From an uncultured Latescibacterota bacterium (GTDB lineage Bacteria > Latescibacterota > UBA2968), in the NCBI GenBank assembly GCA_951812755.1, contig OX638329.1:4286522-4350521 (forward strand): DNA of 64,000 nt. The letters run 5' to 3'. A program made the position numbers and the translations under genes. The notes under the pieces are model-generated. The model had not been told where the DNA came from and searched no databases. It saw only the letters and a program-made list of their open reading frames with translations. This document shows positions 1 to 11,713 of this stretch, piece by piece (position 1 is the stretch's first letter; every line of letters begins with the position of its first letter).

Positions 1-101
1 GTTGCAAGCCCGAGTTGATCAAGCCGGGCGAACAGGTTGATCTTACACGCCCTGGGGTCGAAAAATTTAAGGCCCTACCGCGTGACCAGACGGAGGGTTG
101 A
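1..101 (+). CDS. Multiubiquitin-type ubiquitin-like protein, C-terminal end (partial)
   Basis: The third frame is open from the window edge to a TGA at 99-101 and encodes 32 residues. They include KPGEQVDLTRPGVEKF and end in Thr-Glu-Gly. Ubiquitin-like modifiers end in Gly, and in bacterial multiubiquitin proteins the last beta-grasp repeat commonly ends in this style, as I recall the family. The E2, JAB-E1 and DUF6527 genes immediately downstream support the call. The stop codon is one base from the E2 start, so the genes are probably co-translated. The protein would be the modifier activated by the E1 domain and conjugated through its C-terminal Gly. Repeat number and start lie outside the window. 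Confidence 0.72.
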   Translation, partial: CKPELIKPGEQVDLTRPGVEKFKALPRDQTEG

Positions 102-102
102 A

Positions 103-504
103 ATGTTGCGGCATCATTTTGAACTTCTGGCAGAAGATCACCAATTTTTAGATGACTACGGTTGCCCATGGGAGACCATCTCTGATGGCTCCCAATGGGT
201 GCTGCTGCATAATTTCAGCACCCAGGACTCCGGGTACAACCATCAACACGTCACCGTGGCAATCCGTCTGGAAACCGGCTATCCAAAGACGGCACTGGAC
301 ATGGCGTATTTCTACCCGACGCTTGCACGCAAGGATGGAAAGCAGATTGGAGCTACCCAAGCAACGCAGCAGATCGATGGGAAGGCCTTTCAAAGGTGGT
401 CTCGTCACCGCACGAGCACGAACCCCTGGATCATCGGTCAAGACAACCTCGGAACGCACATTCTCTTGGTTGAAGACTGGCTGCGTCGAGAATTTGAAAA
501 GTGA
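103..504 (+). CDS. Prokaryotic E2-like protein, family E
   Basis: A 133-residue protein starting at the ATG at 103, one base after the upstream stop. An earlier in-frame start at 37 would overlap the upstream gene and add residues that do not fit the family. It matches the Prok-E2_E pattern as I know it: an N-terminal LAED-xxx-LDDYG segment, PWE, VTVAIRLETGYP, a DMAYFYP strand, QRWSRHR near residues 96-102 and a C-terminal VEDWLRREFEK helix. The only cysteine is Cys21 in YGCPWE, which is not where a canonical E2 nucleophile would sit, so the conjugation chemistry is open. Gene order modifier-E2-E1/JAB supports a role in transferring the ubiquitin-like protein. Confidence 0.82.
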   Translation: MLRHHFELLAEDHQFLDDYGCPWETISDGSQWVLLHNFSTQDSGYNHQHVTVAIRLETGYPKTALDMAYFYPTLARKDGKQIGATQATQQIDGKAFQRWSRHRTSTNPWIIGQDNLGTHILLVEDWLRREFEK

Positions 505-511
505 GGCTGAT

Positions 512-1978
512 ATGGACGTGACACTTACTTTGACCCAAGACCAGCACAAAGAGCTTAAAACGCATCTCTTTCCAGGTGATGGATATGAGGCATCGGCGAT
601 CATTCTTTGTGGGAGATGTGCCGGAGATCGGCGACATCGTCTGGTTGCGCGAGAAGTGCATCCAATCCCGTATAAACAATGCTCTGAGCGCACACCTTTA
701 GGGGTGACTTGGCCGACTGATGTTATTGCCCCTCTACTTGATCGTGCTGAAGAACACGGGTGGACAGTGATAAAGAGTCATAGCCATCCTAACGGCAGAG
801 CACGGTTCTCTGAAATCGATGATGAGGGTGATCGCAAACTAATACCCGCGGTTCGCGACTGGTTCGATGACGATTTCTTCCACGGTAGCGTCGTTATGCT
901 TCCCAATGGAGAGATGTTTGGCCGCTGCCTTGATGGTAAGGGTGATTTTGTACCCCTGGCACATATCAACGTAGTTGGGGACGATCTCCTATTTTGGTAT
1001 GCCGATCCACACAGCGACAACATCCCGGATTTTGTGGCGTCGCACACTCAAGCATTTGGTGAAGGAACCTTTGAACGCATTCGCCGTCTGTCGATTGCAG
1101 TTGTTGGCTGTTCCGGGACCGGTAGTCCGGTGATTGAGCAACTTACTCGACTCGGTGTTGGGGAACTGGTGCTCGTTGATGGAGATATAATTGAAGATCG
1201 AAATATCAATCGCATCCTGAACGCGACAATGAATGACGTGCAAGCCGATCGGTACAAAGTCAGTGTTCTCACCGAGGCGATCAATCGCATCGACATCGGA
1301 ACCCGCGTTATTCCACTGGCTACGAATCTTTGGACACCGGAGGCAGTACGGGCCGTTGCACAGTGCGATCTCGTTTTTGGGTGTGTAGATACAATCGACG
1401 GGCGTTTTCTGCTCAATACGCTCGCTACCTACTACATACTTCCTTATATCGACCTTGGTGTCCGAATTCGGGCAGTCCCAGAGGGTGAGCACAAAGGGGA
1501 TATCCAGGCTATTTGCGGCAGTGTTCACTATCTGAAACCGAGTGGATCGAGCTTAATCAGCCGAGACATATTTACCCTTGAAGAAGTCGCGGCCGCAGGG
1601 TTAGCGCGAAACGACCCAGAAGCCCACGCACGACAGGTTAAAGATGGTTATATTGGCGGTGTAGCTGTGGCTCGGCCCGCTGTCATTAGTCTGAATATGT
1701 CTTTGGCTTCGCTTGGGGTGCATGAATTGCTCGCCAGATTACATCCATTCCGAGATAATCCTAACGGTGATTACGACCACATTCAGGTTGATCTTGCTGG
1801 TATGATGATGGATTTCGATTCGAAACCCGATCCTTGTTCAGTCTTCCGCAGTGATGTTGGTAAGGGAGATGTCCGCCCACTTCTCGGAATGTTGGAACTG
1901 TCGGAGAAAACACATGAGGATATCGATACTAAAACGGTTCAGGAACTGGCTACGCAACTTGTTACGTCCCCAGTTTAG
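512..1978 (+). CDS. JAB deubiquitinase-like / ThiF E1-like fusion
   Basis: A 488-residue protein. ATG at 512 follows the E2 stop by 7 bases, and the frame upstream overlaps the E2 gene, so the longer reading is unlikely. Residues 1-150 form a JAB/MPN+ isopeptidase domain with the zinc signature H90-S-H92-P and S100-x-x-D103. Residues about 190-430 are a ThiF/E1 adenylation domain with the nucleotide loop GCSGTG (199-204) and LVDGD followed by ED-RN-IN-R (about 221-234). One chain could therefore trim the modifier precursor or conjugates and also adenylate its C-terminus. This is the fusion layout seen in bacterial ubiquitin-like operons. The 3' end overlaps the DUF6527 gene by 65 bases. Cysteines near Cys335 could be the E1 thioester site, but I cannot assign it. 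Confidence 0.9.
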   Translation: MDVTLTLTQDQHKELKTHLFPGDGYEASAIILCGRCAGDRRHRLVAREVHPIPYKQCSERTPLGVTWPTDVIAPLLDRAEEHGWTVIKSHSHPNGRARFSEIDDEGDRKLIPAVRDWFDDDFFHGSVVMLPNGEMFGRCLDGKGDFVPLAHINVVGDDLLFWYADPHSDNIPDFVASHTQAFGEGTFERIRRLSIAVVGCSGTGSPVIEQLTRLGVGELVLVDGDIIEDRNINRILNATMNDVQADRYKVSVLTEAINRIDIGTRVIPLATNLWTPEAVRAVAQCDLVFGCVDTIDGRFLLNTLATYYILPYIDLGVRIRAVPEGEHKGDIQAICGSVHYLKPSGSSLISRDIFTLEEVAAAGLARNDPEAHARQVKDGYIGGVAVARPAVISLNMSLASLGVHELLARLHPFRDNPNGDYDHIQVDLAGMMMDFDSKPDPCSVFRSDVGKGDVRPLLGMLELSEKTHEDIDTKTVQELATQLVTSPV

Positions 1979-2306
1979 AACCGTCTTTGTCGAAGAAGAC
2001 TTACCTGAACAGCCAAAGTCAAAAACTCTCTACCTCGTTATGGAGGCCGGTGATCCGTGGCACGCGGCAATACTTTGTCCATGCGGTTGTGGGGAAACAC
2101 TGTATATGAATCTCATCCCGGATGAACGACCAGTCTGGCACCTCAAAGTGCAGGAAGATTACACTGAGACGCTTTGTCCTTCCATTCTGCGAAAAAGGGG
2201 TTGCCGTTCACATTTCTGGTTTAGGAATGGCCGGGTTTATTGGTGTAATGAGCAAAAGTTCCCAATTTGGCGCGATGTTCGGCTCCTTATATTCGGCTCC
2301 TTATAG
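1914..2306 (+). CDS. DUF6527 family metal-binding protein
   Basis: A 130-residue protein. The ATG at 1914 is preferred because it gives a family-length product starting MRISILKRFRNWLRN; a longer form from 1851 would overlap the E1 gene further. The core CPCGCGE, the LIPDERPVW strand, CRSHFW and RVYWC give several Cys and His ligands of a likely zinc site, which matches DUF6527 as I know it from bacterial ubiquitin-like operons. The position as last gene, overlapping the E1 by 65 bases, suggests translational coupling. Its role is not established here; a ligase-like or target-recognition part is conceivable. The last residues FGSL come from a 14-bp tandem duplication. Confidence 0.75.
   Translation: MRISILKRFRNWLRNLLRPQFRTVFVEEDLPEQPKSKTLYLVMEAGDPWHAAILCPCGCGETLYMNLIPDERPVWHLKVQEDYTETLCPSILRKRGCRSHFWFRNGRVYWCNEQKFPIWRDVRLLIFGSL
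2279..2306 (+). repeat. Perfect 14-bp tandem duplication at the DUF6527 stop
   Basis: TTCGGCTCCTTATA occurs twice back to back (2279-2292 and 2293-2306). The two copies are read in different frames. Without the duplication the protein would end in LLIAK rather than LLIFGSL. It looks like a recent slippage event that left the stop codon inside the second copy. Confidence 0.85.
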
Positions 2307-2487: not shown

Positions 2488-5391
2488 TCAGTCCTCAGTA
2501 TCATCAATCAGCCCAAGTTCTCGTAGCGGCTCCATGACACCATTTTCCAGTTTGATCTTGTCGAAGTTACTCTCCGACCTCGCTCTGGCGTTAATGGAGA
2601 CTTCTCCAGCCAGATCCGCGAGGTTGGCAATGGCGTTCCAAGCTGCATACAAGTCATCTCGGTTAGCAATGAATGAGAAAGCAACTTCTTGTTCAGTCTC
2701 CACGGGCGGTGGCAATACATCGCCTGTATCGCTGGATTCTCGGGCTACGTCAGTTCCTGTGTCACGCGTATCGTCCGTTTCTTGATAACCTCCGCTGGAT
2801 GGCTCGCTCGGCTCAGATGGCTTCTCTGGAAGTGCCTGGGGCACGATAAGGAAACCGGAATCCAGGTCAATCTCGTCATCCTCAACATACCTCTCAAAAG
2901 CGATCCGACTCCAATCCAACTGGTAACGCCCATCTTCTCCAAGGGTTGGTCGCCCTGTTGTATATCCAAACAAGCCCGTCTGCACGCCGCGTGCGATTGC
3001 TTTGCTCACGATATGATGCGAGGTAAGTCTTGGAAATCCAAGGAAGGAAAAGAACCCCGCTACTACTCTGTCAGTGGCTATGCCTTGATCTCCAGAATCG
3101 TCTTCACCCAGCTTAAACAATTCGACGATTTTACCAGGTGCGACAGATCCGAAGACCTTCCGCTGCACGGTGGACAACAGTTCCATCAGGCGTTGATGGA
3201 TTTGAGCGCGTTTTTTTTCATCCAGTGTCGTCTGGAGTGGCCGGCCTCCTATGCTGACTGACTCTAAGGACAGCGTACCATTATCGGATCTTGGCAACCA
3301 CACATCGCCATAGAGCTTCAACAAAGCTGACTCGGCCGCCGATTTTTCAGTGGCGTTGCGTTCCTTAAGCTGATCCTTTTGTGCATCCGTCAGATTGAGT
3401 TCACGCCACTTGGTCTGGACTCGTTCGATTGCCAGCAGATATCGGACGGCCCGCCGCAATACCTCAACTTGGTCCGCCGATGGCACAGCGAGTCCAAGAC
3501 CGTTGCGGAAGTCGCGCGACCGATTACTATGGTTCTCATAGATATCGCGGGCGGCCGCTTGCTGCTCATCATTGGGTTGCATGGCAAACTCAAGCGGCAT
3601 GTAGGCGATCAAGAATTGCGTCTCTTTGTCCGGAATATCTCTGGATTGCGACGGCCATATGATTGCTGACTGCTGACCCGCGAGTCGTTCCTCGATCAAC
3701 TCCTTGATCTGGGTCTGGACGCGACCTTCATCTCGGGCGACGGCTTCCACCTCTTGTTCGACGAGCAAGGTGACGTTGGGATCCTTTTTGAAGCAGTACC
3801 GTGCGCCGTCAAAATGAAGGTAGAGACATGTTTCCTTAAGCTCCTTGAGGCAGGCCTGAACGGTTGTGCTATCGAGATCGGGGCCGACACAGGTCCTTAA
3901 CAAGTCCGCCTCGTCAATGCCGGGTGGAAGGAGATCGCCATCTCCACTCTCGGAACGCCGGAGTCCCCCAAAAGAGGATAAAAGTATGGTCATCGCCAGA
4001 CGGGTTGCAGGACGCTTTCCTGCCTCGGAGGTCGTCTCCCGCGCTCGTCTATCATCGATCCTGCGCGCCCGCGCATTTGCACCAACAAAGTCATGCTCCA
4101 GACAAGGTTGGAAGTCCTCTCGCTGTCCGACTTCCTTAAAAAAAGAAAGGCGTACTTCTGAATCCTGTATGGGAACATCTCCCGGACCCAGCAGCATTCG
4201 AGAGTGCCCAGTGCCATGGATAGAGCGAAGGCAAGATGCCAGAAATCTCAAGGCACCGCGGGTACGCTGAAAATCGGGAATTGCTGCCCAGCGTTCTCGC
4301 ATGATATCGATGAGGTCGGGATGAAAGGGATAGGATGATTTGATGCGATCTCGGAGTATCAAGCCTTCTTCTTCTGCCTGCTGTCGCTCGGAATCGCTTT
4401 CCGCGTAGGCACGTCGCATCTGAGTAAATATATCGCGATGGATTTCTGCTGTCTGTGAAGCGGCGTGCGGATTTGGAATCTCTGCCAGCAACCTGCGCTG
4501 AATCACATTGAGAATTTCGTTTCCTTCAACTGGCTCCCGACGTTGATCCTTGCGCGCGGCCAGATGTTCTACAGTTTGTAGCAGACTTGTGTATTCCAGC
4601 GATTCTCGATTACTCGACTGCAAAGAGAACACAAGGGCGGCGTTCTCGACGTTGCCAACAGCGACGGTCAAGCGTTTAAGAAAGGATAGTGTCTCGGCGC
4701 GGAGGGTAGTCTCCTCTACACGTACACCGCCTGCACTTATGAGGTATTCCAACAGTTCATCCAGGAGAATCAGGCTTGGACCTCGCTTGAGCAACTCAAT
4801 GATCGCATCAGCACCAGGAGCCACGCGTACTTGATCCTGTTCTCGAACGATTTCGTAGCCTTCCGACCCTGCCAGCGCCCATGCAATCCAACCCCAGATA
4901 GTCTTTGCGTTAAAACTCTCTCCAGGCAAGTGCTTACCGACCTGTACATCGAAAAACTGGCCATCAACCGCAGCCACATTTACTTCTTCAGGTCGAGGTA
5001 GTCCGGCTGCCTCTGGCAACGCATCCAGGGTAGCTCTTGAGCGTGCGCCATGAAGCAAAGCTGCAAGTGTGTGTGATTTACCACCTCCAAAAGGAGTCAC
5101 CAACTTGAGCACTCGATTGCCCTGAGTTCCTGCCAATCGTCCCAATACATCGTGCAGCAAAGACTTCAGGCCACTCGTCAGGAAGGATGCACGAAAGAAA
5201 CTATCCGGATCTCGGTAAACAGCAGGGACTCGGGGCAATTTCGAATTTGGCAAACCGAGGTCCCGTCCGATCAAGTAGTCGGACAATGCACCGAAGTCAA
5301 GTGCAAAAATGTCCTCGGAAAATTCGTCGGAAAGGACATCCGGATGCAGGCTTACACACTCAAGCCATGGAGAAAAGGTCGTTGTACTCAT
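2488..5391 (-). CDS. DUF499-family P-loop ATPase of a methylase-helicase defence module
   Basis: A 967-residue protein. Walker A is TPFGGGKSHT at residues 99-108 and Walker B is LILLDE at 207-212. The N-terminal PW-ECVSLHPDVLS and the D-F-xxx-L-SDYL segment match DUF499 as I know it. The C-terminal part is rich in Ser, Thr, Glu and Asp around residues 870-905, probably a flexible linker before a final small domain. The start ATG overlaps the DUF1156 stop in an ATGA tetranucleotide, and it is the last gene of a helicase-methylase-ATPase operon. DUF499 proteins co-occur with DUF1156 methylases in prokaryotic defence islands. The exact action (DNA translocation or complex remodelling) is unknown. 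Confidence 0.85.
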   Translation of the reverse strand: MSTTTFSPWLECVSLHPDVLSDEFSEDIFALDFGALSDYLIGRDLGLPNSKLPRVPAVYRDPDSFFRASFLTSGLKSLLHDVLGRLAGTQGNRVLKLVTPFGGGKSHTLAALLHGARSRATLDALPEAAGLPRPEEVNVAAVDGQFFDVQVGKHLPGESFNAKTIWGWIAWALAGSEGYEIVREQDQVRVAPGADAIIELLKRGPSLILLDELLEYLISAGGVRVEETTLRAETLSFLKRLTVAVGNVENAALVFSLQSSNRESLEYTSLLQTVEHLAARKDQRREPVEGNEILNVIQRRLLAEIPNPHAASQTAEIHRDIFTQMRRAYAESDSERQQAEEEGLILRDRIKSSYPFHPDLIDIMRERWAAIPDFQRTRGALRFLASCLRSIHGTGHSRMLLGPGDVPIQDSEVRLSFFKEVGQREDFQPCLEHDFVGANARARRIDDRRARETTSEAGKRPATRLAMTILLSSFGGLRRSESGDGDLLPPGIDEADLLRTCVGPDLDSTTVQACLKELKETCLYLHFDGARYCFKKDPNVTLLVEQEVEAVARDEGRVQTQIKELIEERLAGQQSAIIWPSQSRDIPDKETQFLIAYMPLEFAMQPNDEQQAAARDIYENHSNRSRDFRNGLGLAVPSADQVEVLRRAVRYLLAIERVQTKWRELNLTDAQKDQLKERNATEKSAAESALLKLYGDVWLPRSDNGTLSLESVSIGGRPLQTTLDEKKRAQIHQRLMELLSTVQRKVFGSVAPGKIVELFKLGEDDSGDQGIATDRVVAGFFSFLGFPRLTSHHIVSKAIARGVQTGLFGYTTGRPTLGEDGRYQLDWSRIAFERYVEDDEIDLDSGFLIVPQALPEKPSEPSEPSSGGYQETDDTRDTGTDVARESSDTGDVLPPPVETEQEVAFSFIANRDDLYAAWNAIANLADLAGEVSINARARSESNFDKIKLENGVMEPLRELGLIDDTED

Positions 5392-8171
5392 AGGTCGTTG
5401 CCCTCAGAGAATAATGGTAGAGTATATTGTCCTGTTACTTTCCGTTCGATTTCCTCACTGTAGGTATTCCCTTCTACAAGGCTTTGCCAATTCGCTGTCA
5501 GTTTCGAGAGCGCACTCAGTTCCGCAGTTGGTATTACGTCCTTCGCCTCCGTGTTTTTGAGAATAGGCGCGCAGAGAGCTTGGGTGACGAGACGAAGTTG
5601 CTCCACATTTGGGTGAGCGACCTTGAGAAAGGTGGCGACCTCTGTTGGCCGATTATCGATGAGCCAGAGCAGACGATGCAAAACATCAATGAGAGGTGCT
5701 GGTCGATCATCTACACCTATGCCTAACTTCTCGTCATCACCGCGCTCTTCATAATTGCGCACGCGAAATTTACTGCCGGATTTCTCGACTAATGAAGGAG
5801 ATGGTCCAGATATGCCTAAAGGGCCGTCAATCTCGATGCCCTGGGGATAACAAAAGACATAGGCATCTCCCGCCTCAATGCTTGATTCACGGTACGTAAA
5901 TCTCCATAGGATATAGAAGCGCGTGATAGAGTCCACTGATCCAACAGCCGTGCCCCGCAATCCGAATATCTCATCGAGCATGACGTCGAGCACAACGCCT
6001 TCGACTTCACGGAGGTACCGCTCCGCAGGCATGGGTTCTCCGTTGGCGTATTCGACACTCCCAAATTTCGTGTATGCGCGCAACCCAGCACCAACTGCTG
6101 CCATCAGGAGATCTGCTCCACCGATGCCTTTACCCCCAGCCCACAGTGTCACCACCCGCTCTCGTGCGATGCGATGGAGTTCCGGTGCCACATCCGTTTC
6201 GTATTCTCCGGTAGCTGATTCTTCGCGGCGGCGTGCTACGAAGAATATGCTGTCCGAGAGAGCGGCAGCTTTAAGGGTGTTCATTCGACCTCGCGACTCT
6301 GTTTGCACTGGCCAAGCCTCTGTTACCGTAAGTCCAGCGTCGACAAGGGCGCGGATTAGCGTTGCCCAGCCCTCCGTTGTTTTGTGAGCGTACACACAGA
6401 CGAGAGGAGCGCCCGGCTTCAAAACGCGTCGAGCTTCGACGAAGGAACGACGCATCAGGTCCTGGTAGTACTCGTTTGCTTTCTGGACATTACCGCCGTG
6501 TTCGCTCGGCTGCGCAACAGCTTCGCGGCGTTTCGGGGGTGTGGACAATGTGAAGTGTTCAGGATAGAGGTCTCCAACGATGCGTTTTAACCAGACGTAG
6601 AAGAAAGCAGAGAGATCCGCGTAGTAGATACTGCTGTAGTACGGTGGATCTGTAATAACAGCATCAAAAGATTCATCGTCGTAGAATAGTTTTTCGGCAT
6701 TTCCTCGTGTTACAATTGATGGATTTTTCACCTTTGCAAGCTCTCGGATGCTGGACTCCTCCCTTTCCAATGCGAGAGGAAAGCTCCCTGTAGTATTTGC
6801 AAATGGGTTAATGTCTGAGAAATCGTAGATCATCTTGAGAGCCTGCCGGTCACCTATAGCTCCCCTTGTAATCTGGTCTCGAGGTTCCCATCGTGAAAAC
6901 TTGTTAAACGCGATGACCAGACGCCCGAACGCCATCGAAAAGTATGTTGTCAAAGCGCGAGTGCGGTCTTCGGCCATTCCTTTATCGAGCATTTCAGCAT
7001 GGGCGACCCGAATGTGCTTGACCAAAGTGAAGAGCGCGAGAAGTTGCCGGGGAGTGAACAGCTCGCTATAACGTTCAACTCCGTAATGTGGTAACTGGTC
7101 TCGGAGCTTTCCCTGAAGGATCTCGTCTAGAGTACCCAACTGTAGCTCTTCTTCCAATGCGACTAAGCGAGAATGGAGGTGATCGTCTGAGGGAAGCATT
7201 CCAGCCTGTGGAGCCAGATACAACTTGGACCGTTTGCCTTGCACCACAATAGCAGCAAGAGAGTCCTGCATTTTCCCTGCGAGTGCCATCTCCTTAACGT
7301 GGTCAGTCGGTGCCGGTGTATCGCATGCAACGCAGACCGCTTGTCCCGCACTGGTCTGCCCCTCTTGAGCACTGATTTCCCTAGCAGAGTTACCAGATAC
7401 GATTTCCCATCTCAGATCTCTGCCATTTTCGATTCTCGGCATGGCGGCGACTGCCCCTCCCTTTTTACGCAACCATGACTGACGGACGAGAGGAACCGGC
7501 GCGTCACAGCCTGGGCGACGACAGGGAACTGTACGAGCCCAGATGTAGGCTACAGGTTCAGCAACACTGGCGACCTGTGGATTACTGCCGCCGAATAGAT
7601 TTGTCTGGGTAAGCACCTCTTTAGTTCCAGAGATATGAACCGGTGGGTAAATATCCCTGAGTTCCTGTTGCATCCGATTGAGGATGATCTGGCCCCAGTG
7701 TTGAAAATCATTTGCAAGACTGGGGCCATACGTTTGGGGAAAGACCAACGTGCATAGCTCAATCAAGTGAGCCACTGGGTTGTAGTCAATGGCATGGCTC
7801 TCACAGCCCAATCGTGCAGCTTCGAGAGGAATAGCGCCACCGCCGGCGAACATATCGAGGACTTTTGGGGCTATGTCTCCGTAATGCTTATTGATTCGTT
7901 CTATTGCCTCTTCGACGATCTTTGGATGCGGTTTGTACACTGCCAGCTTGGTGATGAAAGATGCCGCTTCCTCACGTTCTTCGTCAGTGCGCGGAGCAGA
8001 AACAAGCGCGGCGTAGATTGCAGCACGACATGCAGTTGGCGGGCGGCGGGCCGGCCAGTAGTGGACCAAGGAAACGTAATGTTGAGGATGTAGTTTTTCC
8101 CTCGGCGCAACGACATTTAAGAAGTCCAGAGGTAGATAATCCTCGATTAAGCGTCGATCTGCTGTTTTCAC
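5388..8171 (-). CDS. DUF1156 DNA methyltransferase
   Basis: A 927-residue protein. The SAM-binding motif LDMFAGGGAIPLEA lies at residues 105-118 and the catalytic motif DPPY at 508-511, followed by YSSIYYADLSAFFYVW. This is an N6-adenine/N4-cytosine type arrangement. Between them, Cys217, Cys222, Cys280 and Cys283 look like an inserted zinc-binding knuckle. The N-terminal RLIEDYLPLDFLN and the HYVSLVHYWPARRP segment are typical of DUF1156 as I know it. The start is GTG with GGAGG upstream and overlaps the helicase stop in GTGA; the stop overlaps the DUF499 start. The methyl mark likely labels self DNA in the three-gene module. Confidence 0.9.
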   Translation of the reverse strand: MKTADRRLIEDYLPLDFLNVVAPREKLHPQHYVSLVHYWPARRPPTACRAAIYAALVSAPRTDEEREEAASFITKLAVYKPHPKIVEEAIERINKHYGDIAPKVLDMFAGGGAIPLEAARLGCESHAIDYNPVAHLIELCTLVFPQTYGPSLANDFQHWGQIILNRMQQELRDIYPPVHISGTKEVLTQTNLFGGSNPQVASVAEPVAYIWARTVPCRRPGCDAPVPLVRQSWLRKKGGAVAAMPRIENGRDLRWEIVSGNSAREISAQEGQTSAGQAVCVACDTPAPTDHVKEMALAGKMQDSLAAIVVQGKRSKLYLAPQAGMLPSDDHLHSRLVALEEELQLGTLDEILQGKLRDQLPHYGVERYSELFTPRQLLALFTLVKHIRVAHAEMLDKGMAEDRTRALTTYFSMAFGRLVIAFNKFSRWEPRDQITRGAIGDRQALKMIYDFSDINPFANTTGSFPLALEREESSIRELAKVKNPSIVTRGNAEKLFYDDESFDAVITDPPYYSSIYYADLSAFFYVWLKRIVGDLYPEHFTLSTPPKRREAVAQPSEHGGNVQKANEYYQDLMRRSFVEARRVLKPGAPLVCVYAHKTTEGWATLIRALVDAGLTVTEAWPVQTESRGRMNTLKAAALSDSIFFVARRREESATGEYETDVAPELHRIARERVVTLWAGGKGIGGADLLMAAVGAGLRAYTKFGSVEYANGEPMPAERYLREVEGVVLDVMLDEIFGLRGTAVGSVDSITRFYILWRFTYRESSIEAGDAYVFCYPQGIEIDGPLGISGPSPSLVEKSGSKFRVRNYEERGDDEKLGIGVDDRPAPLIDVLHRLLWLIDNRPTEVATFLKVAHPNVEQLRLVTQALCAPILKNTEAKDVIPTAELSALSKLTANWQSLVEGNTYSEEIERKVTGQYTLPLFSEGNDL

Positions 8172-11100
8172 TTTGGTTCCTCCTGTTGATCACGCGCAGC
8201 TTGCTCCACAGCGTTTGCAGGCAAATCATAGTACCGGGCAGCGACTATCTCTTTCTTGGCGTAGTCCAGATGCTTGGCGGGATTCTGCACCATCACGGGC
8301 GTAGGATCGGGGTTATGCAGAGGGTCCCATACGACGTATAGCCAGTACGTGTCCCCGAGTTGTTGTGCCTTGTACCATTCATTCGTGGTTAGCCGAACTG
8401 CCCCGCCCCGTTTGCGACCCTTGACCTCAATACGCCGTACGCCAGTGACAGGATCTCGATAACCTGTCTGCGGGTCCGGTTGTGCCAAGCTCCGAATATC
8501 GAATCCGATCTTGAGATGACCGACGCGTTCGCATTCACGTCCCTGGGTTTTCTCGAAAGCAACGACAACATCCTCGGCGGCAAGCTCAACGCGTCGCTTC
8601 AATTCTGCATCCACCTCCTCGGTAATTCCAGAGATATGGCCCGCGGCTGTATCGGGTGGAAGTATGAAGCAACTTGCAACATGCCGCACAGAGCCGCTGC
8701 GAGCAACGCGAAGCCGTTTTACACCATCAAGCCGTTCCCGTTGTGTGCGCTGGATATCGACCAGATACTGTTCTGCCCGCTGGCGTGCCAGTGCGACCTC
8801 CGGCTCTTTTAGTTCGCGAGCACGCAACCCCATCACTCGGTCCTGAGCCGCACGGATGCGCGCGTCAAAAGACCTCTCGAGGTAATCGCGTGCGATATCG
8901 GCATAACGACCACGCTCGGTTTGAGCATCTTGCCGCCGCTCCATCTGCACTGTCATCTTGACGTAGTCGCTGACGGGGCTGTGATCGATTTTGGGTAATG
9001 TCTCAGGTGGATGTGGATGTGCAGGCAGGTCAATGAGGACATCCGCCGGAACAACGTTGTAGCGGTCAGTAGCAGAGGTACTTTCGCTAATCTCTTCCCG
9101 CACACCTACCAGTTCGGCATGAATCGTTATTGTTTCACCTCTGGTTGTCTCGCCTCGTACTGATATTTCATAGAAGTGAAGCCAGTAAGGTGCCTCTGCT
9201 ACTGGATCCATGAATACCGCTGACTGTCCTGAGAGTTCATCAAGGAGTTCCTGCAACTTCTCGTCAACAGTGGCATAGACAGAGTGTCCGGGACCCAGAA
9301 GCACGGCATCCAAATGTTGGTCCTGTTCCAGGTGCTCCTTGTAGAAGGTTAATTTTCGATAGCTGCTGTCCGGTTTTCCGAGGCGCTGGACCGCTGTTAG
9401 ACGTTCAGAACGAAGATCAGCGAGTACATGCTCAATCCTCCAGAGATCGTCTGCTCTCGCTTCGATCCGAAGTCCCACAGCTTTGGCCGCGTTCAAGAAG
9501 TGCGCCTCAACATAACGCGGCATGAGTCGCCGCTCTTCCGCTTCCATATTCGCCTGCGCAAAGGAAGAGAAATCTACATGCGCGCGCGCCAGAGCGATGC
9601 CAGATGCTTCCTCATAACGGCCAAGAAGTTCAGGATCAATCTGCTCAATAGCGTCAAGATAATCGTCGAGTCGTCTCGGCTCGTACGCCACTTCGCGGAG
9701 CATGTCTGGAAGGTTGATATGGTTCAGGGAGAGCACTTCGCCGATGACGTCAAACACGCGATCCCCGAGCGCGTCCCTCATACTATCCAGTTTGTGCAAG
9801 AGCCGTTCCAGGATGCGCCCTTCAATGACCGGTTGACCATCCTCTGAAGAAGTCGCAACAAAGTTGAACGCATACACGTCACGCGATTGTCCAATGCGGT
9901 GAATACGACCAAGACGTTGCTCGAGACGAGTCGGGTTCCAGGGGAGATCGTAATTGATCATCAAGTGACAAAACTGAAGGTTAATGCCTTCACCAGCCGC
10001 CTCGGTTGCTACGCAGATCTGGCAACTTGTCCGGAAATCCTCTTGAGCTTGTTTGCGCTCGTGCGGATTCATCCCTCCATGAATCTCACAGGTTGAGTAG
10101 CCCCATTTTTCGAGGTGTTCACGCAGATGGTTCAATGTGTCCCGGTGTTCGGTAAAGATGAGGAGTTTGCCTCGTCCGTCCTTTAGTTCGTCAAACTCTG
10201 CTCTTTGCAAGCATTCACGCAGTGCGACCAACTTGGAATCCAGACCGCTTTCTCGGATACGTCCCACGCGTGCAACCAGATTCTCAAGCTCATCAATTTC
10301 GGTCCGCAGTTGATCCAATTCGGCTGTTGCGGTTGCTTCGTCAATGAGTTCATCACGAGTTGCTTCGTCCAAATCGTCCTCGTCTTGCTCAGCGTCGATT
10401 AGGTGACCCTGCATGTGTGCCAGTCGCCTTGATCGCTCAGAAAAGGAAAGGCATTCCAGTTCTCTGAGAAGATCATTCAGCTTTCTTTGCCGTCGACATA
10501 GAGACTCATGGATCGCATGGGTTGAACTTGCCAAGCGCCGCTGGAAGACTGTTCGAGCAAGAGCAACGCTGTTCTTGCGACGCCCAGTCGTCTGTGGCAA
10601 ATATTCGTTGATGTACGCCGTAACTTCCTTGTAGATGTGGTACTCTTCCGTTCCGAGGTTGAAGCTGACTGTCTGCACATGACGATCCGGAAACAATCGG
10701 CGACCGTGCATGTCCTTTAGATCCTCCTTCAGTCGCCGGAGTGACCAAGGGCAATTCTCACCGAGTTGTAAAATCTCTCGACGAATTTGACCGGATGCTT
10801 CGCGGAGACGATGCGGCTCAGGAAATAAGTCGCGGTCGAGAAGGCGTATGAAATGTGCAAACCGGTCGTCGTCACCGTGATGTGGTGTCGCCGTCAGGAG
10901 TAGCAGGTTGTCGCAGTGCTCCGAGAGCCGCTCTGCGAGTTGATACCGCTTCGTGCGCTCGACCTCGTCACCGCGGTTTGTCGAACTTTTCGTGTAGGCA
11001 CTGCATTTATGGGCTTCGTCAATGATAATGAGGTCCCAACGCTGCTGCCAGACACGTTCCCGGACACCGTCTCGCTTGGCATAATCGATGGATGATATGA

Positions 11101-11713
11101 CCAGAGACTCGCGTTCCCAAAGATTCAAAAGCTGTTGCTGATCGTTGGCGGAGTTGATGATCTGGAATTGCTCGTTGAAAAATCTTAATAGTTCGTCTTG
11201 CCATTGAATGGTCAACGAGGCAGGGACAAGGATGAGGCACCGGTCAATGGCTTCTCGGAGCTTGAGTTCCTTGATGAGAAGACCCGCCATGATTGTTTTG
11301 CCAGCACCTGGATCGTCGGCGAGCAGGAAGCGTAATCGCGGTTGTGGCAACATCTTCATATAGACTGCCTCGATTTGATGAGGCAGAGTGCGGATGCCGG
11401 AAAGGCTGACCGCAAATTGGCGGTCGTAGGCGTAGGCAAGACGAATACGGGCAGACTCTATCAGGAGACATAAACTTTCTGCATTTTCAGGTTGGGCTTC
11501 CACATTTTCTTTTAGATCAAAAATTGTAGCAGCTTCCTCAAAGGAGATGACGACCTCTTCGAGCCCGCCATCAGGCAACCGAACTCGACACTCGTAGCCA
11601 GCCTGTCCGTCCGTCCCCAAGGGTCTTACATCTTCCAGGATAACTGGCACATCAAAGTGTCCCTGTAGGGATATTCGGTGTCCAACCTGTTCCGAAAGGT
11701 GACTCTCACTCAT
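8168..11713 (-). CDS. SNF2-type (DrmD-like) helicase with C-terminal DUF3883
   Basis: A 1181-residue superfamily 2 helicase. Walker A DDPGAGKT is at residues 133-140, DEAH at 232-235, LLLTATPHHGDDDRF near 271-285, and motif VI RLEQRLGRIHRIGQ near 596-609. An acidic coiled region (about 440-480) separates the lobes. The C-terminal region (about 1040-1150), with the RRIEVKGRKRGGAVRLT and EWYKAQQLGDTYWLYVV segments, is a DUF3883-like domain with a nuclease-like EVK core. It is the first gene of the operon. The architecture resembles DrmD of DISARM-type systems by recollection. Likely role: ATP-driven recognition or remodelling of unmodified foreign DNA. Confidence 0.87.
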   Translation of the reverse strand: MSESHLSEQVGHRISLQGHFDVPVILEDVRPLGTDGQAGYECRVRLPDGGLEEVVISFEEAATIFDLKENVEAQPENAESLCLLIESARIRLAYAYDRQFAVSLSGIRTLPHQIEAVYMKMLPQPRLRFLLADDPGAGKTIMAGLLIKELKLREAIDRCLILVPASLTIQWQDELLRFFNEQFQIINSANDQQQLLNLWERESLVISSIDYAKRDGVRERVWQQRWDLIIIDEAHKCSAYTKSSTNRGDEVERTKRYQLAERLSEHCDNLLLLTATPHHGDDDRFAHFIRLLDRDLFPEPHRLREASGQIRREILQLGENCPWSLRRLKEDLKDMHGRRLFPDRHVQTVSFNLGTEEYHIYKEVTAYINEYLPQTTGRRKNSVALARTVFQRRLASSTHAIHESLCRRQRKLNDLLRELECLSFSERSRRLAHMQGHLIDAEQDEDDLDEATRDELIDEATATAELDQLRTEIDELENLVARVGRIRESGLDSKLVALRECLQRAEFDELKDGRGKLLIFTEHRDTLNHLREHLEKWGYSTCEIHGGMNPHERKQAQEDFRTSCQICVATEAAGEGINLQFCHLMINYDLPWNPTRLEQRLGRIHRIGQSRDVYAFNFVATSSEDGQPVIEGRILERLLHKLDSMRDALGDRVFDVIGEVLSLNHINLPDMLREVAYEPRRLDDYLDAIEQIDPELLGRYEEASGIALARAHVDFSSFAQANMEAEERRLMPRYVEAHFLNAAKAVGLRIEARADDLWRIEHVLADLRSERLTAVQRLGKPDSSYRKLTFYKEHLEQDQHLDAVLLGPGHSVYATVDEKLQELLDELSGQSAVFMDPVAEAPYWLHFYEISVRGETTRGETITIHAELVGVREEISESTSATDRYNVVPADVLIDLPAHPHPPETLPKIDHSPVSDYVKMTVQMERRQDAQTERGRYADIARDYLERSFDARIRAAQDRVMGLRARELKEPEVALARQRAEQYLVDIQRTQRERLDGVKRLRVARSGSVRHVASCFILPPDTAAGHISGITEEVDAELKRRVELAAEDVVVAFEKTQGRECERVGHLKIGFDIRSLAQPDPQTGYRDPVTGVRRIEVKGRKRGGAVRLTTNEWYKAQQLGDTYWLYVVWDPLHNPDPTPVMVQNPAKHLDYAKKEIVAARYYDLPANAVEQAARDQQEEPK

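Follow-up and report, generated by a model that had tools for sequence, protein, structure and literature searches.

The bacterial ubiquitin-like (Ubl) systems Bil and type II CBASS Cap2 use cysteines of both their E1 and E2 proteins. The closest described relatives of the locus analysed here are the Bub operons, which are reportedly the subject of Ye et al. 2026 and Gong et al. 2025, and for which structures of the Citrobacter BubB and BubCD proteins have been deposited (PDB 9EA4, 9EA5, 9EA8, 9EAE and 9EAV). Iyer, Burroughs and Aravind described in 2006 a fifth operon type (6e) with the following parts: Ubl repeats, a JAB-E1 fusion, an E2/RWD-like domain, free or fused, that "lacked the conserved cysteine residue", together with a protein, potentially metal-binding, that has the pattern C-x(3)-C-x(35-38)-H-x(2)-C; they also noted a variant in which another N-terminal domain replaces JAB (PMC1779556). 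The operons are called Bub in a study that counted 544 of them, 219 of which are accompanied by CapW or CapH plus CapP, and that describes protection against phage as not demonstrated for Bub (PMC13373217).

The DNA analysed here (the window, 64,000 bp) is positions 4286522-4350521 of a single-contig 6.53 Mb Latescibacterota genome, and its first 2306 bp, together with the sequence just upstream, make up an ordinary, complete Bub (bacterial ubiquitination-like) operon, for which a Latescibacterota chromosome is a new host. A preliminary description from the sequence had proposed a ubiquitin-like conjugation operon of four linked genes, and all four are confirmed: modifier, E2-like protein, JAB-E1 fusion and DUF6527 protein follow one another in that order on the plus strand with unbroken reading frames (Table 1). 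They are closely packed, the E2-like gene beginning one base past the modifier stop codon and the DUF6527 start at 1914 overlapping the end of the E1 gene (stop at 1978). An Rfam search of the operon gave no match, and consensus promoters are no more frequent than expected by chance.

Table 1. Features of the Bub operon (window positions) and of the second ubiquitin-like locus of the same genome (L056 positions).
Feature	Position	Strand	Basis or conservation
BubA-like modifier gene, 3' end	1..101	+	Pfam Multi_ubiq; whole gene L002:7754-8101
BubB-like E2-like protein, Prok-E2_E, 133 aa, without catalytic Cys	103..504	+	Profile, PDB match and model
Cys21 codon, sole Cys of E2-like protein	163..165	+	5/30 relatives; between helix 1 and strand 1
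QRWSRH motif of E2-like protein, Q97-H102	391..408	+	W99, H102 30/30; S100 28/30
JAB peptidase-E1 (ThiF) fusion, BubCD-like, 488 aa	512..1978	+	Profile and PDB match
JAMM motif of JAB domain, H90-x-H92-P-x7-S100-x2-D103	779..820	+	H90, H92, S100 invariant
Nucleotide-binding loop GCSGTGS (G199-S205), E1 adenylation domain	1106..1126	+	Alignment
Cys335 codon of E1	1514..1516	+	Unconserved, 8/28
Tyr380 codon of E1, invariant crossover-loop residue	1649..1651	+	28/28
DUF6527 protein, 130 aa, probable Zn-binding partner	1914..2306	+	Profile, alignment
CPCGC cluster of DUF6527	2076..2090	+	Cys55 37/37
L056 locus: HTH	2669-3061		
L056 locus: ImmA/IrrE	3049-3633		
L056 locus: Multi_ubiq	4282-4530		
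L056 locus: DUF6791-ThiF	4502-5734		
L056 locus: DUF6527	5737-6171		

How does this operon compare with those already known? The comparison, of about 27 operons spread over many phyla, covered 22 plasmid loci and several genomes; the four proteins occur together in nearly all of these operons, the main exception being an archaeal locus (Natrinema, L028) with no recognisable modifier or DUF6527. Set against type 6e the operon shows no difference of substance and adds one further species; its DUF6527 protein fits the potential metal-binding fourth protein of that type. It shares with Citrobacter Bub the genes and their order, the fold of the E2-like protein, the absence of an E2 cysteine and a crossover-loop tyrosine in the E1, and DUF6527 is likewise present in a Bub locus on a plasmid of Citrobacter freundii (L020); in the Citrobacter locus, however, the E2 is fused to three beta-grasp domains, whereas here there is one, encoded by a separate gene and ending in a ready-made Gly. 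Bil and Cap2 share the general bacterial Ubl/E1/E2 logic, but neither the E1 nor the E2 of the operon here has a conserved cysteine; PADLOC E1-E2 models match it weakly and in the ThiF part only. Close relatives of the locus lie in Latescibacterota genomes. Viral contigs yielded one full Bub locus (L037) and one partial one, so the operons are not mainly phage-borne.

The E2-like protein matches Prok-E2_E (134.8 bits), and in a single-sequence search its only PDB relatives were the Citrobacter BubB chains (9EAE and 9EAV). Its AlphaFold model (pLDDT 85.7) superimposes on chain C of 9EAE with a TM of 0.90 and an rmsd of 1.2, and weakly on eukaryotic UBCs (TM about 0.4). A canonical UBC has its catalytic cysteine after strand 4, and we found no conserved cysteine anywhere across 30 aligned E2-like proteins. 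The single cysteine, Cys21, had been judged to lie in a place unlike that of an E2 nucleophile, and the model agrees: it puts Cys21 between helix 1 and strand 1, outside the UBC active-site position and far in sequence from the post-strand-4 loop. As it is also present in only five of the 30 proteins, Cys21 was rejected as the nucleophile. The missing cysteine is not peculiar to this locus; it is the rule for the family, in print since 2006 (PMC1779556), and a Cys-less E2 is diagnostic of Bub. The operon thus belongs to a known, structurally studied family, of which an E2-like protein without the usual cysteine is a trait, and is not a new system. Because no E2 cysteine is conserved, the E1 may transfer the modifier without a canonical E2~modifier thioester, and to this extent the preliminary description was well founded.

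The JAB-E1 protein matches Citrobacter BubCD in the PDB (9EA4 and others, E=1e-88), and its adenylation and JAMM residues are kept in the alignment. A canonical cysteine-bearing E1 carries that cysteine in the crossover loop, where a cysteine of any kind is found in only two of 27 E1s, the two unaligned with each other, and where the protein here has Tyr380 instead. Cys335, put forward earlier as a candidate, is no better than Cys21, being present in just eight of 28 E1s, and was rejected as the E1 nucleophile; Cys291 (27/28) was also set aside, since it lies in the adenylation domain (CVD motif) and was taken as structural. Tyr380, on the other hand, is invariant (28/28) and the sole invariant nucleophile in the crossover loop, and a loop tyrosine is also present in all five E1s of a JAB-less sister branch (below). 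HMM-HMM alignment with MoeB/ThiF-type E1s places the canonical loop cysteine one to three residues from Tyr380, the gap being ambiguous. A chain of PDB 9EAV has Phe at the Tyr380 position, plus a JAB change that is also in 9EA5, which shows that the residue interested the depositors. Invariance does not amount to catalysis, and with an alignment to the canonical cysteine that is uncertain by one to three residues Tyr380 may be structural.

Elsewhere in the genome (5853102-5853713, L081) a MoeB/ThiF-type E1 gene reads APS-TGA-DEAGVLG, with the in-frame UGA exactly at the position of its relatives' crossover-loop cysteine (APSC) and a hairpin directly downstream. The same UGA-bearing gene is present in each of the ten listed genomes of the genus (L076-L085). 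Since SelA and a tRNA-Sec match (73 bits, cut-off 47) are both present in the genome, the gene probably encodes a selenocysteine E1.

The modifier gene is mostly outside the window: it starts 247 bp upstream on the same strand and encodes 115 amino acids, the last third inside the window. The protein matches Pfam Multi_ubiq (40.9 bits) and ends ...LPRDQTEG. The preliminary description had it as a modifier with a C-terminal Gly, which proves right, the Gly being mature without further processing, and the multiubiquitin gene whose absence upstream would have spoken against that description is there in full. A Gly follows the last beta-grasp domain in 29 of 29 aligned modifiers; in some species a short tail comes after it, and in fused versions it is joined straight to the E2. 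Such fusions, of one to three beta-grasp domains, are frequent in other Bub loci and need cutting, presumably by JAB. Just ahead of the modifier gene there is a small YjzC-like gene (L002 7486-7671, 62 aa), which L009 shares and to which L005 and L010 have a shorter match.

The DUF6527 protein (76.6 bits) has Cys55, Trp75, Pro89, Ser90 and His100 invariant in 37 of 37 sequences, and Cys59 and Cys97 in 34. The resulting pattern, C-x3-C-x37-C-x2-H, fits a Zn site and has the same spacing as that of the type 6e metal-binding protein with H and C exchanged, so that a Zn-binding partner is the likeliest reading of the motif. No PDB relatives were found, and the AlphaFold model (pLDDT 46) is too poor to assign a fold. 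The Rhizobium phaseoli plasmid protein (L034 4440-4757) is without Cys57, Cys59 and Cys97 and keeps Cys55, Ser90 and His100; in a Deinococcus plasmid (L027 4224-5669) an APH/TCAD9 phosphotransferase-like gene stands between the Bub E1 and DUF6527 genes. The 47 genomes of the class yielded 12 DUF6527 genes, each next to a ThiF-type E1, and five of these E1s are without a recognisable JAB, three having DUF6791 in its place and two having no named N-terminal domain. Within the class DUF6527 thus accompanies the E1 more faithfully than do JAB or the E2-like protein, which speaks for a part in the conjugation step or in the choice of target.

One such JAB-less locus is in the same genome (2278168-2281670; L056 2669-6171, Table 1). 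Like the Bub operon it has a Ubl-like protein, an E1 with a crossover-loop tyrosine, DUF6527, and HTH and ImmA/IrrE regulators; unlike it, it has neither JAB nor Prok-E2_E, its E1 is fused to DUF6791, and its modifier ends KFTDKS, with no Gly. An AHJR-like nuclease is also encoded there.

Upstream of the operon, on the minus strand, are genes for a 201-aa HTH protein, a 152-aa protein and a 294-aa ImmA/IrrE-type peptidase (Peptidase_M78). The same trio stands beside Bub in a congeneric locus (L004), and the peptidase alone does so in Pontibacter; by protein type, the HTH protein and peptidase resemble the CapH and CapP regulators of Bub (PMC13373217). A neighbouring regulator of the DNA-damage type (CapW, CapH plus CapP, or CapK plus CapS) is frequent in Bub operons but not obligatory. 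Between the divergent regulator gene and the operon, and nowhere else in the genome, a 107-110 bp unit with internal inverted repeats TTTTGCCA...TGGCAAAA occurs three times in tandem (L002 7133-7454, genome 4285654-4285975), possibly as an operator array. Downstream, PADLOC models identify homologues of HmaC (DUF499), HmaB (DUF1156 methylase) and HmaA (SNF2 helicase) on the minus strand (window 2488-11713), likely an Hma-type defence system. The operon had been said to touch this second module and perhaps to act with it; these genes end at 2488, on the opposite strand and convergent, with 181 bp between them and the operon, and HmaABC was not found in the available flanks of related Bub loci. 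A joint unit was rejected on these grounds, and joint action is unsupported.

If cysteine is not used, where might the activated modifier go? The E2-like protein itself could be catalytic through Ser100 of its WSRH motif, as an oxyester with the modifier, since this residue (28/30) stands beside invariant W99 and H102, which with Y60, D66 and W109 (all 30/30) are the best conserved of the protein. However, Deinococcus (L027) has His and Natrinema (L028) has Ala at this position, in operons that are otherwise recognisable, and Iyer et al. judged the domain inactive (PMC1779556); we regard this route as unlikely. Somewhat less likely again, along the lines of the preliminary description, is a transfer role for DUF6527 in place of the E2/E3, with the modifier taken over from the E1 by Cys55 (or by Ser90 together with His100). 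The invariance of these three residues and the constant place of DUF6527 beside the E1, JAB-less loci included, argue for it, as does the Rhizobium protein, whose retention of Cys55 despite the loss of Cys57, Cys59 and Cys97 would be odd if Cys55 were just a Zn ligand. But the motif looks like a Zn site, which is the simpler reading and was already the metal reading of Iyer et al. (PMC1779556), no fold could be assigned, and the Natrinema locus has no recognisable DUF6527.

A broader proposal joins parts of these observations: that all DUF6527-linked E1s, both the JAB-E1s with BubB and the DUF6791-E1s with neither, form one Cys-free transfer class, in which an ester forms on the crossover-loop tyrosine and DUF6527 rather than the E2-like protein is the universal partner for transfer or target choice. 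We put it forward tentatively, as doubtful. It is very improbable, finally, that there is no protein conjugation and that the E1 does no more than activate the modifier, which might then serve as a sulphur carrier or a signalling polymer. The absence of an E1 or E2 cysteine for a thioester relay and the multi-domain modifiers possible in the family are compatible with this, but the operon always includes an E2 fold and a JAB peptidase, and the title of the cited Bub paper reports protein conjugation.

We think it rather probable that the operon is a complete Bub operon of type 6e that works as follows: The E1 domain, with its adenylation residues intact, would adenylate the ready-made C-terminal Gly of the modifier. 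The E2-like protein would bind the E1 and, in the manner of UEV/RWD domains, position the modifier or the target; it carries no Cys-linked modifier, since its family has no conserved cysteine. The activated Gly would then pass to the target straight from the adenylate or by way of a hydroxyl ester, for which the invariant crossover-loop Tyr380 is the best candidate site. JAB, whose JAMM motif is retained, would remove the modifier, or trim precursors in species whose modifier-E2 fusion buries the Gly, and DUF6527, with its probable Zn site and as the constant partner of this E1 group, probably aids target choice or transfer. The adjoining ImmA/IrrE-type regulators probably induce its expression when DNA damage or a similar stress occurs.

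Within the genus the Bub locus is patchy (three of 11 genomes), as expected for an accessory or conflict gene set. For the family, neither the E1 nor the E2 has a usable cysteine, the crossover loop of the E1 holds an invariant tyrosine, and the operon's one strictly invariant cysteine belongs to DUF6527. The same genome also has the sister branch that lacks JAB and BubB, a natural test of the role of DUF6527.
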